Shown here: positions 1 through 42,938 of the stretch, piece after piece
How positions within the stretch are numbered: position 1 is the first letter of the stretch
Layout: the number at the start of each line of letters is the position of its first letter
IMG/VR virus record: IMGVR_UViG_3300046820_000298
Coordinates: 17,152 to 81,151 of that record
Reading direction: 5' to 3' (one strand)
Length of the DNA stretch: 64,000 bases
Source of the DNA: a virus
Program-made: the position numbers and the translations under genes
Notes under the pieces: model-generated
The model's database searches: none
Told to the model about the DNA's origin: nothing
Seen by the model: only the letters and a program-made list of their open reading frames with translations

Positions 1-2973
1 AGCAGAGTCTGCTATATCTACTGACTTCCAAGTGACTACATTACCTGTAGCCATATCAGTTACTTTAACTCCTACAATAGTTCCTAGCTCATCTCTAATT
101 AAAGCATCAACTGGGTCGACTTCTAGGTTTGAATAGGTTCTTCCATCGATAGTAAAGCTACTACCGTCAGAACTAACCATTATCTCCCCAAATGTTCTAG
201 CTTCTATATCACTAAGAACTTCTTCGTATGAAGCAGTGGTTGCTGCAGTAGTAGCTGCATCCGGAGCTTCAAACCCAATATTTTTCTGGAAGTTTTTTTC
301 AGCTTCTAGTTCATCTAGCCTTTTCTTATATCTTTTGTAAGCAGATTCTTCAATTGGAGATAGCTTCTCAGGATCAATGGCATCGAAATCTTCTTTGCTC
401 ATATTTCTGTATCCTGCTATAACTGCATCTTCTTTAGCAATAAGCTCTTCTCTCTTAACTATAGCTGCAGCAATATCCTCAGGATCTGCATTCTTAGGGA
501 ATGAGTTGTTAAGCTCTTCTACAGATTCAGAGTTGGCAACAGCTGCTTGAGCCTGTTGTTTATTTTTGTACTTATCATCTTGCTTTCTTTTAGCTACTTC
601 AGCTTCTACAAGGAGAGCAATATCCTCTGGCTTGTCTCTTAGAGCTTGGTAACTTTGAACAGCACTTTGTCTATCCCCAATTAACTGACCTAGTTCTTGA
701 ATTTTTTTCTGAAACTGTCTTCCGTCTTCTGGGTTTAAAACACTTTTAGCTTTAAATATCTCATTAAGTTTCTCATAAAGCTTGGCATTCGGAGTAGTAG
801 TTACCCCACTTGTAATAGATATCTCCCCTTTATCATCAACCTTTACATTACCAGTTTTAACTATGTACTCAAAGTCTTCCTCTGGTATTGCAGATAATGC
901 AGGGGCTAGATCACGAAGCTCTTGGTAAGTTTGCTTAATCAAATCATCGTGTGTATCCACATGTTCTAGTCTATTAAGCAGAACATTAGCATACATAGTT
1001 TTGATTGAAGTTTCTAGAGCTTTTGATTTCTTTAACTCTTCACTCTCAAATGAATCTAGTATTCTACCGAACATTCCCATTGATGGGTTATGTGCTCTTA
1101 GTATATCTTGAACTTGCTCTTGTCTCTTAACACTTCTCTCCATCTTTGACTTAACGTCATCGATAAGCTCTCCTTGCTCCATACCAGTTTGCTCTTTAAG
1201 AGTCCTGTTAGCTTCGTAGCCCCATCTCTTCTTAAACTCAGTTTCATCTAGTTGCTTAAGATCGTCCATCATCTCCATTGCATAGTCAAGAGCTCCAACC
1301 TTTCTGTATTGGTTAGCTACACTAGAAATAATCTTTCTACGAGCAATCTCAGCATCTTTAAAGTTGCCAGCATTGTTAGCTTCGGTCATCTCTTTTGCTA
1401 AAGCAATATTCCTATCGGATTGCTCCATGTTTTCTAAGACTTTACCGAATGCTTCAGAGTTCATTATATCAAGAGCCTTCTTAGTATTTGCATCTTTCTG
1501 TTTAGCAAACTTACTATCAGCTCCACCAAGTCTAGAGATAGTACCTGTACCACCACCGACTAAAGCTCCAATAAGGATACTTTCAAGTCCTTCTTTAGTC
1601 CCGATAGATTTAGATAAGCCGTTAGTAAAGGCTTCTACCATATCTCCAGTTCCATCAGCAAACTTATCTGAGTAGTAATCTTTAGAAGTTTCAGCTGTTA
1701 CAAACTGTCCAGCTTCTTGAAAACCTTCAGATAATGAATTTTTTATAGGGGCACCGAATATTCTATTAGACTTAGCAAATGCTTTAGCCATTCCTTTCTC
1801 TGGAATATCTTCTACCCATTTACCTGCTACTTTCTTGATATCATACATTTGAGATTCAGCTACTGGCTTAATCCCTTTAAACATCTTAGCAAAGCTTATT
1901 GCATTTGTACCAGCAAGAAGTGGAAGGTTAACTCCAAAAGTTAAGTTACCAGCTGCAGCTCCAGATTCTTCTATTCCTTTTCTTACATCATCAGGCATCT
2001 CCTGACCAGGATTAGCCTCCTCCCATTTAGCAGTTTGTTCTTCAATGAAACCATTCTTAGCTTCTCTAGCTTCTACTGATGCTTCAGCAAGAGACATGTG
2101 TAATGCAACACTAGTATTTTTAGCAGCTGTTTTTATACCAGCTTGTCTGGCCATTTTAGCTAATCCTTGATCTATTCCCTTAGCAATATTATTAGTGTAA
2201 GGAGCACTAGCAACTTTAGCTGCATTGTAAATCTGTAATTGTTTACTTCCAAACTTAGCAGCATCTGCCCCAATATCCATTGCCTTATCAGTAGCTTTAG
2301 CAATCTTAGACATTCGTCCTAAATTACCTAACTTAGCTATCATAGCTCCTTCCCCAACACCTAACCAGGCAGTTGCAAGAGAGCCTAATGTATAACCAGC
2401 ACCATTAGCAAACTTATCAGCCCAGAAATTAGCAGTGGTCATTCCTTCTAGAACTCCCATATCTTGCTCTCTCTGAGTGTAATAGTTAGGCATAGCCTCT
2501 TGAGCCCACTTGTTTATCTCATCAATAGATCTACCTACCGGATTATCATAGTAACTGTGGTTTTCTCCAAATGCTAAGTTGAGTAATCCTCCAGCTACAC
2601 CAACAGTATTTTCTGCAACAGCTCCTAATGCTGTAATTCCAGCTTTAGTTAATCCATTTGCCCATTTTTCTACAGTACCCTGGTTTTGAGCACGAGTTTC
2701 ATTCCAATCTGCAAATGCATTTCGTGGAACCCCGTAGCTAGTGTAATCTTCTAGTGGGTCCGTATAAGTATTTGTTAAACTTATTGTAGCTGCATTTAAG
2801 TCAAGCCCAGAAAATCCAGTTCTTGGAGTATTCTGAGTTGGGGCAAATACGTTTGCATCTCCTGTCTTCTTGTACATGTAAGTTGCAAACGGATCATTAG
2901 ACTTCTCTTTAATGTCTTTTACTGGAAGCCCTGACTTCTTAGCAATGTAATTTTCAAATGGATCTTCAGTCAT
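1..2973 (-). CDS. Very large internal/ejection-type virion protein, 3' end cut off by window
   Basis: The frame is open for 991 codons from an ATG at 2973 to the left window edge, so the C-terminus is missing. The N-terminus holds two related short segments, DPFENYIAKKSG and DPFATYMYKKTG. The middle has a glycine-rich hydrophobic stretch (ILIGALVGGGTG, encoded near 1560-1600) inside long helical, charged, alanine-rich sequence; the visible 3' part is again helical and rich in K, E and Q. It starts 4 nt after the stop of the next gene upstream and follows two other giant genes and the muzzle-like gene. That position and composition fit proteins packed in the head or tail and ejected with DNA. 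Crassviruses often carry giant virion RNA polymerases near here, but I saw no polymerase motif in the visible part. Function is inferred from context only. Confidence 0.7.
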   Translation of the reverse strand, partial: MTEDPFENYIAKKSGLPVKDIKEKSNDPFATYMYKKTGDANVFAPTQNTPRTGFSGLDLNAATISLTNTYTDPLEDYTSYGVPRNAFADWNETRAQNQGTVEKWANGLTKAGITALGAVAENTVGVAGGLLNLAFGENHSYYDNPVGRSIDEINKWAQEAMPNYYTQREQDMGVLEGMTTANFWADKFANGAGYTLGSLATAWLGVGEGAMIAKLGNLGRMSKIAKATDKAMDIGADAAKFGSKQLQIYNAAKVASAPYTNNIAKGIDQGLAKMARQAGIKTAAKNTSVALHMSLAEASVEAREAKNGFIEEQTAKWEEANPGQEMPDDVRKGIEESGAAAGNLTFGVNLPLLAGTNAISFAKMFKGIKPVAESQMYDIKKVAGKWVEDIPEKGMAKAFAKSNRIFGAPIKNSLSEGFQEAGQFVTAETSKDYYSDKFADGTGDMVEAFTNGLSKSIGTKEGLESILIGALVGGGTGTISRLGGADSKFAKQKDANTKKALDIMNSEAFGKVLENMEQSDRNIALAKEMTEANNAGNFKDAEIARRKIISSVANQYRKVGALDYAMEMMDDLKQLDETEFKKRWGYEANRTLKEQTGMEQGELIDDVKSKMERSVKRQEQVQDILRAHNPSMGMFGRILDSFESEELKKSKALETSIKTMYANVLLNRLEHVDTHDDLIKQTYQELRDLAPALSAIPEEDFEYIVKTGNVKVDDKGEISITSGVTTTPNAKLYEKLNEIFKAKSVLNPEDGRQFQKKIQELGQLIGDRQSAVQSYQALRDKPEDIALLVEAEVAKRKQDDKYKNKQQAQAAVANSESVEELNNSFPKNADPEDIAAAIVKREELIAKEDAVIAGYRNMSKEDFDAIDPEKLSPIEESAYKRYKKRLDELEAEKNFQKNIGFEAPDAATTAATTASYEEVLSDIEARTFGEIMVSSDGSSFTIDGRTYSNLEVDPVDALIRDELGTIVGVKVTDMATGNVVTWKSVDIADSA

Positions 2974-2977
2974 CTAT

Positions 2978-5185
2978 TTAAAAGTTAAGCCAACCTTTGG
3001 CAATAGCATTTTTTATCACCTGATCATCTTGTGTATACTTAATTGGAGTTCCTCCATTAAGTGCATCCTCTCCTGTCTCTGGATCGGTAAAGGTAATGTA
3101 TGGATCTCCATCTCCTCTAGAAATAACATTAACATATATAGGATCTCCAGCTAATTTTATTGTTTCAATAGTACCAACAGATCCAGCTATTCTAGTATTA
3201 TGTTGCTGTATTAAAGATGCTAATCTAACTTCAGGGTCCGACATTGCATTTCTAAGTTCTTTAGAAGTTATCTGTCTTCCATCGTAAATAGCTGTAATGG
3301 AGCCTGGTTTATCTCCTCCTTTCTCTAAGTGTATCTGATACAAATTTGTTTGGAGATTAGGGTAAGCACCTTTCATTACATATCCTTCTGCTGCTAACTC
3401 TGCTCCAGTTTTTTGCTCTCCATTAACTGTAAAGATTTGATTTTCGAATGGCATCTTACCATTAAAGTATTCATTTTTTGCTTTAGTAAGAGCTAAACTT
3501 TTTTCTGGATCTCCAACATCGATTGTACCTGCATTAAATAGAAAAGAGGCTTTTATTTCTGGTATGACATTTTTTATCTGCTCGTCAAATTTTTCTTTAA
3601 AAATTGAAGCTGGTGTATACAATCCGACTGCTTTTCCCTGCTCTTGTTTTAATCTATTTTGGCTTTCGAATCTATACCATTTTCTAATATGATTATCATA
3701 GGCCCCTTGCCCATATTCGTTATCAAAAGCTGTTTTTAAAGCTTCGGGTTTACTTACAATAATATTATAGATCTCACCTGCCGATGCATTAGGATTAGCT
3801 TTTTTAACAGCATTTACTAACGTAGGATCTTGTTTTTCTAAAGTTGCCATATTAATAGCCTTATCAGTAGCAGCTTTTAACTGCCCTTCAACCCTGGACC
3901 TTTCATTAATATTACTAGCTAAAGCAGCCTTTTTTGTATTTAACATCTGATCTGACATGCCACCTGCTGCGATTTCTGCTTCTAGATTTGTAATTTGCTG
4001 ATTTATACCTGTTAAGTAATCTCGTTTACTTGTAGGAGTTGCCCCTGATATATCGTCTGCTGCAGTTACATCTCCTTGCTCATAAAGGGGTACTCCCATA
4101 GCAGCTCGTGCATCTGCTTGTCTTTTCATAGCATCGAGCTGTACTGCATAGTTATTCTCATAACTATACTCAGTAGTATGCTCTCTAACTCCAGCTTTCT
4201 TCAAAGCATATTCCTTAACTGGATCAAGCAGTTCATTCTTAAACTGCTCTTTAAGATATGTACTAGCTAAATTAGGATCAGACTTAGCTGTTTGAATCTT
4301 TTTGTTTTCTTCAGCTAGTGCAGTTATTTTATTTCCAAGAACCTTTTTATCTGCAGCTGAATACTTTCCAGTAGCTATAGCCTGGTTAATCTGATCAATA
4401 GCAGATTGATTATTCTTAAGTTTAGCATCCAAGTAAGCTCCAGTGTTACCACTTCTATCAGCCATATACAACTTCATGTCTGCTCTTTGGTCTAGATACA
4501 TTCTAACATCTGGCTCTTGAATAACAGAATTATAGACATCCATTACGTCTTCTTCTGGTATTTGTACAATTTTTTCCCCGGATGTTACTTTCCAAACACC
4601 GTTAGCATCTAATCCAGCCTTTCCGGTTTTACCTCCACTAGTTTTTTCATAAAGGATCTCTAGTCTCTCCTTCATCTTATCCATCAACTTAGGATCTTTG
4701 TAGATAGTAGGAGCTGAGAACATGGTCCCTTCTTTTGCTTTACCAGTAGTAGGATCTACTTCAAACCCTTTATACCCTTTAGTAATGTAAGAGGTAGCCA
4801 TGTTGTAATCCTCAGCATTGATATCTCCTTTCTTAAATTGCTCATCTATCTCTTTAAGAGCTCCTTGATATCTTTCGTAGTTCTCTTTGATAGGAGCATA
4901 GCTAGTAGAGAAATCCTTGGTTGCCTTATGAACAGCAAAGCCTAGGTTTTCGTAATCTCCTCTGTTAGATAAAAGGTCTAGCTTCTCATTAATCTGAGTC
5001 TCTAGTTCTTTCTTCCTAGCTAAATCATTCTCAAATGGAAGGGCAGCTTTCATCCCTTCTACAGCCATAGATAACTGGTCATTAGCTTTGAAGTTCTCCA
5101 TAAATCTATTACGAAGAGTCTCTGATATAGCTACAGACTGTGGGTCCACATAAGTACTTACATATTCACCAAACTTATACGGCAT
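2978..5185 (-). CDS. Large helical cargo/ejection-type protein, 735 aa
   Basis: The product is mostly charged and predicted helical, with long K/E/Q/A-rich segments (roughly residues 20-190 and 240-470) and a more beta-like C-terminal 150 residues (for example GSITAIYDGRQITSKEL and YVNVISRGDGDPYITF). There is no signal peptide, membrane segment or enzymatic motif that I recognise. It sits between two other giant genes with 4-5 nt gaps, so all three are surely co-transcribed. In crAss-like phages this position, after the muzzle gene, is occupied by cargo proteins stored in capsid and tail, and that is the most likely role here. A tail-lysozyme or RNA polymerase role is not supported by visible motifs. 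Confidence 0.65.
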   Translation of the reverse strand: MPYKFGEYVSTYVDPQSVAISETLRNRFMENFKANDQLSMAVEGMKAALPFENDLARKKELETQINEKLDLLSNRGDYENLGFAVHKATKDFSTSYAPIKENYERYQGALKEIDEQFKKGDINAEDYNMATSYITKGYKGFEVDPTTGKAKEGTMFSAPTIYKDPKLMDKMKERLEILYEKTSGGKTGKAGLDANGVWKVTSGEKIVQIPEEDVMDVYNSVIQEPDVRMYLDQRADMKLYMADRSGNTGAYLDAKLKNNQSAIDQINQAIATGKYSAADKKVLGNKITALAEENKKIQTAKSDPNLASTYLKEQFKNELLDPVKEYALKKAGVREHTTEYSYENNYAVQLDAMKRQADARAAMGVPLYEQGDVTAADDISGATPTSKRDYLTGINQQITNLEAEIAAGGMSDQMLNTKKAALASNINERSRVEGQLKAATDKAINMATLEKQDPTLVNAVKKANPNASAGEIYNIIVSKPEALKTAFDNEYGQGAYDNHIRKWYRFESQNRLKQEQGKAVGLYTPASIFKEKFDEQIKNVIPEIKASFLFNAGTIDVGDPEKSLALTKAKNEYFNGKMPFENQIFTVNGEQKTGAELAAEGYVMKGAYPNLQTNLYQIHLEKGGDKPGSITAIYDGRQITSKELRNAMSDPEVRLASLIQQHNTRIAGSVGTIETIKLAGDPIYVNVISRGDGDPYITFTDPETGEDALNGGTPIKYTQDDQVIKNAIAKGWLNF

Positions 5186-41546: not shown

Positions 41547-41575
41547 AGCCTCCTTAATTGGGGGCTTTTTCTTTT
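41547..41575 (+). terminator. Rho-independent terminator after the Ig-like pair
   Basis: AGCCTCC pairs with GGGGGCT (one G-U) around a 6-nt loop and is followed by TTTTTCTTTT. It lies 24 nt past the stop of the second Ig-like gene, making these two genes a separate short transcript. Confidence 0.85.
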
Positions 41576-41769
41576 CCCTAAAATCCCATTATTGTATGAT
41601 TTATCCGTCATTAAGCCTTAATTCCGTGGTTAATGACTGATTTATCACACATTAAATTTTCTAGCTGGTTAAAAATTTTTTAGTTGGAAATTTTTTGAGA
41701 GTGTTGTCCTACGTATTCAAAGACCCCCACTAACTTTGGCGGAGCAAACTTCCCTCCGCATCATTTGCT
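41576..41769 (+). other. Non-coding leader before the 52-residue gene
   Basis: No convincing frame. Contents: the inverted repeat GTCATTAA (41607-41614) / TTAATGAC (41630-41637); two adjacent 19-bp AT-rich direct repeats starting TAGCTGG (41662) and TAGTTGG (41681); and a hairpin GCGGAG/CTCCGC (41739-41759) 10 nt before the ATG at 41770. It probably holds the promoter and leader of the small gene. Confidence 0.5.
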
Positions 41770-41928
41770 ATGAAATCAGCATACTTGTCAGAACGTACTG
41801 GCACCCTCGTTATCACCGATCGTACTTGGACTGATGCAGGTCCATCGGAGAAGTCTTACTTCATCCGTGCTACGGACTCTGACTACCAGCAAGCCATCGA
41901 CTGGGCTACATCCAAAGGACTCTTATGA
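41770..41928 (+). CDS. Small soluble protein, 52 aa
   Basis: ATG at 41770, TGA at 41926-41928. The product (KSAYLSERTGTLVITDRTW, then TDAGPSEKSYFIRATDSDYQ) has good alternation for a small alpha/beta fold and uses GC-rich, optimal-type codons, a mark of strong expression. A stable hairpin (41912-41938) contains its stop codon. It directly precedes the structured non-coding block. No family recognised. Confidence 0.55.
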   Translation: MKSAYLSERTGTLVITDRTWTDAGPSEKSYFIRATDSDYQQAIDWATSKGLL

Positions 41929-42055: not shown

Positions 42056-42105
42056 GTGGGGTAGAATAGTAATCACCAAATTGATTGCATCATATTCTAT
42101 CCCAC
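42056..42105 (+). ncRNA. Structured RNA domain B: 13-bp inverted repeat
   Basis: GTGGGGTAGAATA (42056-42068) pairs with TATTCTATCCCAC (42093-42105), 13 pairs with one G-U; inside, AATCA (42071-42075) pairs with TGATT (42082-42086). It starts 2 nt after domain A ends. As DNA it could also be a cruciform or a protein site. No U-run follows, so it is not an intrinsic terminator. Confidence 0.5.
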
Positions 42106-42121
42106 TTTCTCTCATTGCATT

Positions 42122-42251
42122 CAGTTGTAATACCTTGTGTAAGTCCTAAACTTAATCGTTACCTATTAAGTCTTACGTAGATACTTCTCTACATTATGTA
42201 AGCAGGGTGTTTAGGGTTCTAGTGTTTAATCACAAAAGACTATTACAACTG
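42122..42251 (+). ncRNA. Structured RNA domain C: three-way junction closed by an 11-bp perfect stem
   Basis: Outer stem CAGTTGTAATA (42122-42132) with TATTACAACTG (42241-42251), 11 perfect pairs; continued by CTTGTG (42134-42139) with CACAAAAG (42231-42238, two bulged A). Inside: P1 CCTAAA (42145-42150)/TTTAGG (42210-42215); P2 CTTAAT (42151-42156)/ATTAAG (42165-42170); P3 CTTAC (42072+100, i.e. 42172-42176)/GTAAG (42198-42202) stacked on GTAGA (42177-42181)/TCTAC (42188-42192). P1, P2 and P3 meet as a three-way junction. Function unknown; candidates are a small RNA, a leader regulator or a protein-binding RNA. Confidence 0.5.
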
Positions 42252-42296: not shown

Positions 42297-42509
42297 ATGA
42301 AAAGACCATTTGATTTCCTCAAGACTATTGCTGAACTAGCAATCGTTGCTATTGTACTATTCATTGCTCCGGCAATTGTACATTCAGCAGTAACACTAGA
42401 CTTTACTCATTACCTCAATGACCTATCATCTAGTGCTTACTGTGGTATCATGTCCTTTGTATCCTTCTTCGGTACTCTATTCTTTATCGTAGTTGAAACA
42501 GAAAACTAA
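42297..42509 (+). CDS. Small membrane protein with two transmembrane segments, 70 aa
   Basis: Two hydrophobic stretches are seen (about 9-29, TIAELAIVAIVLFIAPAIVH, and 48-66, CGIMSFVSFFGTLFFIVV), with a positively charged N-terminus (KRPFDFLK). No family recognised. It opens a group of three tiny membrane or envelope protein genes (to 42822) and follows the structured RNA block. Such early small membrane proteins often act on the host envelope or exclude other phages; this is inference. Confidence 0.55.
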   Translation: MKRPFDFLKTIAELAIVAIVLFIAPAIVHSAVTLDFTHYLNDLSSSAYCGIMSFVSFFGTLFFIVVETEN

Positions 42510-42521
42510 TTCTATCACACT

Positions 42522-42722
42522 ATGAGAGAAGATAAGTACAATTTTGCAGAGACTACCACATTCTATGCACTCATTATCATTGGCATTACACTGATGATAA
42601 TCTTCATGACATCTTGTAGTCAGACCCAACATGGGTTTGACTATAAGTCTCATGCTAAATCAAATGCTGAGTGGAAACACAAAGCTGAACACAACAATCT
42701 CCCAAAATGTAATCGTCATTAA
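42522..42722 (+). CDS. Small predicted lipoprotein, 66 aa
   Basis: Residues about 14-31 are hydrophobic (TFYALIIIGITLMIIFMT) and end in TSC, a possible lipobox with Cys32, followed by a short polar, histidine-rich tail (SQTQHGFDYKSHAKSN). A lipoprotein anchored in the inner or outer membrane facing the periplasm is the best reading; without processing it would be a single-pass membrane protein. It lies 12 nt after the previous small membrane gene. Confidence 0.5.
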   Translation: MREDKYNFAETTTFYALIIIGITLMIIFMTSCSQTQHGFDYKSHAKSNAEWKHKAEHNNLPKCNRH

Positions 42723-42723
42723 C

Positions 42724-42822
42724 ATGAATGAAACAACTAAAGACATTCTGCTATTCGTAGCAGGCTTCCTAGTATCAGCAGCAATCACAGTTATGTGGTT
42801 GGTAATAGGAGCAATTATATAG
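42724..42822 (+). CDS. Single-pass micro-membrane protein, 32 aa
   Basis: ATG at 42724, one base after the previous stop; product NETTKDILLFVAGFLVSAAI then TVMWLVIGAII, nearly all membrane. The open frame extends upstream to 42631 but that part overlaps the lipoprotein gene, so the inner ATG is preferred. A terminator overlaps its stop codon (42821-42839). No family recognised. Confidence 0.5.
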   Translation: MNETTKDILLFVAGFLVSAAITVMWLVIGAII

Positions 42823-42839
42823 GGGTTCAATCCCCTTTT
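42821..42839 (+). terminator. Terminator after the small membrane-protein group
   Basis: AGGGG (42821-42825) pairs with CCCCT (42832-42836) around a 6-nt loop and is followed by TTTA. The stem is short but GC-rich and stands directly at the end of the last small gene, overlapping its stop codon. Confidence 0.6.
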
Positions 42840-42938
42840 ACTAATGCAGCCATCGAAAGATGAGAGTCACAAGCCTCTATAAATGCAGAGTGGTAAACAA
42901 TTTATTCATTAACTTTTTTAATTTAAATCATCAAAATC
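42840..42938 (+). promoter_or_regulatory. Structured leader of the 202-residue gene
   Basis: A hairpin CATC-GAAA-GATG (42851-42862) with a GNRA tetraloop and a second CTCT...AGAG hairpin (42875-42890) stand before a 45-nt A/T-rich stretch that leads to the ATG at 42939. No Shine-Dalgarno is present; the A/T-rich leader is the usual Bacteroidota form. The promoter probably lies between the terminator at 42839 and the hairpins, or upstream of it. Confidence 0.4.

Follow-up and report, generated by a model that had tools for sequence, protein, structure and literature searches.

An untranslated segment at positions 42122-42251 of the window, the 64-kb stretch taken out of an 81-kb virus record, is, as judged by comparison with related sequences, a genuine folded RNA from a crAss-like phage, and the RNA family it represents is new. 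We put the probability at about 60% that it is a functional structured RNA on the plus strand, namely a free-standing copy of an exchangeable arm. In related phages such arms are inserted as P5 of a divergent, putative type-P1 twister-like ribozyme, as is the window's own arm family in the viral contig L154, and the window copy retains the closed stem and what lies inside it without the ribozyme core. The element comprises the following features:

42122..42251, plus strand: RNA module (arm) consisting of an 11-bp closing stem around a structured interior; its homologue in L154 is the P5 arm of a putative twister-like ribozyme
42122..42132, plus strand: 5' arm of the closing stem, CAGTTGTAATA, with the class signature AGTTGTAATA
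42241..42251, plus strand: 3' arm of the closing stem, TATTACAACTG, which forms 11 perfect pairs with CAGTTGTAATA and shows three double compensatory changes relative to L154
42134-42139 and 42231-42238, plus strand: CTTGTG and CACAAAAG, both segments present in the sequence
42145..42150, plus strand: CCTAAA, 5' strand of the inner junction stem, unchanged in L154, where its partner in the fold is the equivalent of 42210-42215
42210..42215, plus strand: TTTAGG, 3' strand of the inner junction stem, unchanged in both L154 and L008
42151-42156 and 42165-42170, plus strand: hairpin CTTAAT/ATTAAG (P2 of the preliminary description), 5 of 6 pairs retained in L154
42172-42181 with 42188-42192 and 42198-42202, plus strand: bipartite hairpin of CTTAC-GTAGA with TCTAC and GTAAG (P3 of the preliminary description), with GTAG/CTAC replaced by GTGG/CCAC in L154 and L008

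All stems named in the preliminary description of the window were confirmed at these coordinates, the closing stem without a single mismatch. No sizeable open reading frame in the ORF listing of the window runs across 42122-42251, so the stretch is gene-free as had been described, and ARAGORN and Rfam searches matched the element to no tRNA, tmRNA or Rfam family, which bears out the earlier statement that it resembles no known tRNA, tmRNA or riboswitch. The folding energy was -29.4 kcal/mol, compared with -22.5 +/- 3.2 kcal/mol for dinucleotide shuffles (z -2.17). The claim that the pairing exceeds chance therefore held against this control, but only to a modest degree, with 6 of 200 shuffles folding equally well or better. 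The reverse strand folded no worse than the plus strand (z -3.05), and hence the energy by itself is modest evidence. The CCTAAA/TTTAGG pairing is missing from the minimum-energy fold predicted for the window copy.

The same RNA is present in two other IMG/VR viral contigs, the 95-kb contig L154 and L008/L155, where it is cut off by the contig end. The window arm is 85% identical to L154 206-336 over 133 nt (blastn, 5e-32), with the 3' half of the arm nearly identical between the two, and L008 1-92 is the third, incomplete copy. We read the pair changes among the three copies directly off the alignment. Three A-U/U-A flips affect both sides of the closing stem when the window is compared with L154, and extra pairs lengthen the L154 stem. 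The check for homologues and covariation proposed in the preliminary description thus revealed compensatory exchanges in both the closing stem and the bipartite hairpin, but also two breaks in L154, one in a closing pair (A.A) and one in CTTAAT/ATTAAG. The L154 homologue had a z of -3.43, and its minimum-energy fold contains the closing stem, CCUAAAC/GUUUAGG and the bipartite hairpin. Single-base indels between the copies argue against a coding explanation. In L154 the arm sits as P5 within P1/P2/P4/T1 of a twister-like core on the plus strand, and we assigned the window element to the plus strand because of this homology. Overall, the comparison supports a structured non-coding phage RNA with a three-way-junction-like inside within a long stem, as first proposed, on the plus strand. 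Two further pattern scans of IMG/VR gave no copies of the window arm family beyond these three; the family is therefore rare in IMG/VR, and with three copies its inner structure rests on few changes.

Frames of the core that carries the arm were picked by sequence motifs alone, without a pairing criterion, which gave 124 instances at 114 loci. The elements follow each other in the order P1 - U|AA - P2 - J(CAUAA/CAUU) - P4 (loop UUCNCAAGG) - C - P5 (variable arm) - GA - P2' - GAGNG - P1'. P2 and P4 were paired in all 124 frames, with double changes. P1, which joins the bases 5' of U|AA to those 3' of GAGNG, had 3.67 of 5 positions paired compared with 2.57 in shuffled frames (maximum 2.85 in 200 shuffles), and this pairing was confined to the expected register. 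The bases of the putative cleavage site were AA in 124/124 and U in 120/124 frames. The pseudoknot T1 between CNC of the loop and GNG was paired in 123-124 of the 124 frames, its middle pair being C-G in 96, A-U in 27 and U-A in 1. An alignment of 24 sequences had 92.3% of its cells paired versus 74.4% in shuffles (0/500) and a covariation score of 0.543 versus 0.193; both sides had changed in 23 of the 27 core pairs (131 cells versus 41.5 in shuffles), and T1 was 100% paired (CCC/GGG, CAC/GTG, CTC/GAG, GCC/GGC). The candidate bases for T2, C in J2/4 and GG in L4, showed almost no variation.

Twisters of type P1 require P1, P2 and P4, whereas P0, P3 and P5 are optional, and they form the pseudoknots T1 and T2 (PMC5408937). 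P1, P2, P4 and the conserved A 3' of the cleavage site are present in the core of L154 and its relatives in 114 contigs, as is T1 between loop L4 and the GAGNG strand. Like type-P1 twisters (RF03160), the core has P1, U|A, P2, P4, the loop CNCAAG, GAGNG and T1 in the same order, but it has no P3, its P5 is obligatory, its loop is UUCNCAAGG instead of the UCNCAAGCC of twister, and it does not match the Rfam twister models, even in the almost insert-free case of L169. A covariance model of the core (R1) detected the Rfam-type twisters of L214 (33.9 bits), L002 and L010 among its best matches, and also matched window positions 42836-42898 (18.6 bits, E 0.026) and the equivalent sites in L032, L005, L009 and L001; this cross-detection was one-way, from R1 to the Rfam-type twisters. 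Based on the order of elements, the cleavage dinucleotide, the L4/L1 consensus, T1 and the cross-detection, we classify the core as a divergent relative of type-P1 twister with an obligatory P5 and no P3, and as a putative self-cleaver.

Ten loci contain two intact frames on one strand, the pair in L171 being 2 nt apart. At corresponding positions of the related phages L011 (5678-5801) and L014 (5683-5736), the predicted ribozyme has a long and a minimal P5, respectively, like a filled and an empty site. Frames with altered cores exist elsewhere; the classifier that sorted them was too strict for its counts per class to be relied on. Another recurrent frame, TTTAATCA(NN)CTCCCAAGGGTGAGC-arm-GAGTGCAGAGGG, is without the 5' strand of P2 and was seen at L050 8430-8560 and in L073, L095, L140, L150 and L152; it is possibly inactive or completed by another segment.

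The closing stem of the window element belongs to a large class. Stems of the form AGTTGTAATA-N61..121-TATTACAACT occurred in at least 120 viral contigs (a lower bound), compared with 7 contigs for a scrambled control stem of equal composition, and many of the signature stems close the P5 arm of the conserved core. Altogether, 169 arm sequences fell into about 135 families, of which 107 had a single member, and the length of the arm between the conserved core parts ranged from 11 to 180 nt with a median of 89. The arms recur in different cores and move between distantly related phages: the arms of the window and L154 are 85% identical although the terminases of the two phages are 28% identical, and apart from the arm the fetched stretch of L154 matches at the nucleotide level only in a tRNA. 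For two arms, one shared by L154 and the window and one by L093 and L010, one phage has the arm within an intact frame and the other has it without a frame. The preliminary description had taken the window element for a candidate new phage RNA; far from being a type that stands alone, it is one of many exchangeable arms, which elsewhere often form P5 of a presumed twister-like ribozyme. No arm was inverted relative to the frame among the 28 families with several members, and this single orientation argues for a function as RNA. The insides of the arms were barely more stable than shuffles (mean z -0.64 for the sense and -0.49 for the antisense strand), which would allow for pseudoknots or protein-bound folds. 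They had no strong sequence motif in common, and a search for antisense matches to the phage's own genome gave a longest complementarity of 11 nt, not above shuffles. In L112 (12576-12663), an arm within an intact twister-like frame scores as a tRNA (47 bits), the acceptor stem being the P5 closing stem. Type VI-B CRISPR repeats have the ends GTTGT..ACAAC, and our first idea, a CRISPR-repeat mimic, was abandoned once the flanks proved to be ribozyme core.

The terminase of the window is at most 43% identical to those of Crassvirales phages, the best match being CrAssphage cr52_1 of the Suoliviridae, and the major head protein and DNA polymerase were assigned to the expected phage families. Structural genes occupy the minus strand up to 40389, and replication genes the plus strand from 40885. 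The RNA element lies untranslated in the early part of the plus-strand block, between a 52-aa ORF (41770-41928) and three small ORFs (42297-42822), and is accompanied by three further non-coding features:

41640..41737, strand not given: conserved AT-rich non-coding element AAAAATTTTTT..GGGGAAATTTTTTGAGAGTG..TCCTACGTATTCAAAGACCCC, of which GGGGAAATTTTTTGAGAGTG..TCCTACGTATTCAAAGACCCC is kept in 15 loci
42056..42105, plus strand: hairpin GTGGGGTAGAATA / TATTCTATCCCAC, a conserved neighbour immediately 5' of the module
42838..42896, plus strand: conventional type-P1 twister (Rfam RF03160, 59.4 bits, E 1.6e-12; under the gathering score of 67.2)

The AT-rich element stands at the start of the early block and is possibly an early promoter or a replication signal. 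The hairpin has counterparts in L009 and L010 which, as read from the sequences, form GTGTGGTATCAT../..ATGGTATCACAC-type pairing with both sides changed. The conventional twister is located about 590 nt 3' of the element, between the small ORFs and a 202-aa gene, and combines P1-P4, T1 and T2 with an RF03160 match, though one below the curated cut-off; its predicted cleavage site is U42842/A42843. It is kept upstream of the 202-aa gene in L001-L010 and L032, and in these relatives 97.3% of the cells were paired, with double changes in P3, P4 and T2. The label 'SSB-like' for the 202-aa gene was dropped, since no family backs it. A terminator-like hairpin at 41547-41566 (plus strand), followed by a T-run, would part the preceding plus-strand genes from this block.

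Unlike a type-P1 twister, the window element has no core whatever. Neither Rfam at E<=5 nor the core model R1 without filters detected a ribozyme core over 42122-42251, P1, P2, P4 and T1 around a U|A are missing, and the flanks retain at most GCA/TGC of the usual TGCAC/GTGCA; because the core is absent, we regard the element as a free-standing arm. The same observations would fit the remains of a twister-like ribozyme that has lost its core and left a functionless arm behind, and decayed or altered cores do occur elsewhere. We consider such a relic unlikely, as the 11-bp stem has no mismatch and the 3' half has stayed near-identical to that of L154 although the phages have diverged to 28% terminase identity. 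In addition, the truncated copy L008 and the window have similar downstream flanks (GTTTGCATTC / GTTTGCTTTC), and hence the core-less form has probably persisted. In the window's relatives, the slot between the conserved hairpin and the small membrane ORF is filled by different RNAs: L001 has another element there, L008 a tandem of three, L002 a twister-like frame carrying an arm along with a tRNA, and L010 a frameless arm. The slot is thus a site at which such RNAs turn over. This turnover bears on the leader regulator of tiny membrane-protein genes that the preliminary description had considered. A riboswitch-like or translational regulator acting in cis on these genes would fit the position of the element, with the start codon at 42297 following in the same direction after ~45 nt, and it would also fit the co-directional ORF downstream of the twister-like core in 67 of the 78 cases that have a downstream ORF. 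However, the slot in close relatives holds quite different arms or none, the arm in L154 precedes a gene unrelated to that in the window and belongs to a phage with a terminase only 28% identical, and the distance from core to start codon is widely spread, mostly 21-571 nt. With no consistent type of downstream gene and with variable spacing, a cis-acting switch for the membrane-protein gene has become very unlikely.

An arm might also serve as a sensor that controls cleavage of the attached core, as in an allosteric ribozyme. P5 of twister is an attachment site for synthetic aptamers that control the ribozyme, and the variable P1/P5 domains of natural twisters have been suggested to be regulatory (PMC5052635). 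We find this explanation quite unlikely for the phage arms, which exist without a core in the window, L010 and others, and whose about 135 families far exceed the need for common ligands. The least probable of the alternatives, to which we give little credence, is a feature of the DNA and not of RNA, such as an inverted-repeat site for recombination or replication. It would account for the conservation of the stem sequence itself, beyond the pairing, and for the swapping of arms between cores, but not for the constant orientation of the arms relative to the core, for the RNA-type pairings seen in the core pseudoknot and the P1 covariation, or for the continued pairing of stems that deviate from the signature.

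We favor a functional, free-standing arm and propose how it could act. Where the core is present, it would cut its own transcript at the conserved U|A immediately 5' of P2, and such cleavage would leave the arm on a processed RNA that starts at a defined 5'-OH. The window arm would be part of the untranslated portion of an early transcript and precede the three small ORFs; the arm RNA would be parted from the 202-aa gene and the DNA polymerase gene by the twister at 42838. The arm might then act from the processed RNA and not as a cis-switch of the next gene, and it might be a specificity domain that binds a factor of the host or of the phage, most probably a protein. The other two roles raised in the preliminary description, a small RNA or a protein-capturing RNA, may still apply. 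The arms are diverse and pass from phage to phage, much as a trait shaped by host adaptation or an arms race would, and it is from their diversity and exchange that we infer the role as a specificity domain. Tentatively, and with considerable reservation, we suggest that an RNA cassette system is common to the crAss-like phages of natural waters, in which a twister-like mount would carry horizontally swapped RNA domains, which also occur mount-free and might act as specificity factors toward the host or its defences.

The phage arms resemble the variable P1/P5 domains of some natural twisters (PMC5052635) in being extra RNA domains joined at P5. Unlike these, they share one closing-stem signature, are exchanged between phages, occur also free of a ribozyme, and were restricted to crAss-like phages within the range tested. 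Theta ribozymes are small, HDV-like and self-cleaving, are found in Caudoviricetes infecting Bacteroidota among others, and process phage RNAs (PMC10879173). The twister-like cores would likewise be small phage ribozymes, with putative cleavage, but they have a different fold, and whereas theta ribozymes lie at the 3' ends of tRNAs, no core abuts a detected tRNA (nearest 142 nt). GOLLD and ROOL, too, are structured RNAs without an explanation and are in part phage-borne (PMC12286853); they are several hundred nucleotides long and have one conserved fold each, and the window element has no Rfam match. The literature covered, largely openly available papers, contained nothing relevant on such RNAs in crAss-like or other phages, and the predicted twister-like ribozymes with exchangeable arms are apparently an undescribed set, which the Rfam twister models overlook as a whole. 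The finding bears on the role of self-cleaving ribozymes in phages and of variable domains on natural twisters. The part that is exchanged and retained is the domain and not the ribozyme, with more than 100 natural domain families and copies with and without ribozyme, so that it becomes directly testable if the ribozyme exists to produce or display such RNAs. The free-standing arm of the window provides a handle on why phages carry arms.

All 40 long contigs tested encode a terminase related to that of the window (identity up to 96%, most 27-31%), and the class was thus found only in crAss-like phages. The core model detected 1-3 copies in 29 of 33 arm-bearing records and nothing in 7 cultured or gut reference phages (crAss002, DAC15, phi14:2, FpV4, ProJPt-Bp1, cr52_1 and cr3_1), and blastn found neither arm nor core in isolate phages. 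A scan of GTDB genomes for loop and stem gave 6 matches, all apparently due to chance and 0 with the 3' arm. Arm-bearing contigs also contain a Hatchet ribozyme (L085 3088-3239, minus strand, 81.7 bits) and tmRNA genes (L037 5468-5866 and L169 69-403, both on the minus strand), and L008, a contig related to the window phage, has a group I intron match at 3483-3698 (plus strand, 53.2 bits). In record G012 (73,271 bases, behind L210), the terminase at 2865-4433 reads through five in-frame TGA codons, which suggests that TGA is reassigned in this crAss-like phage.
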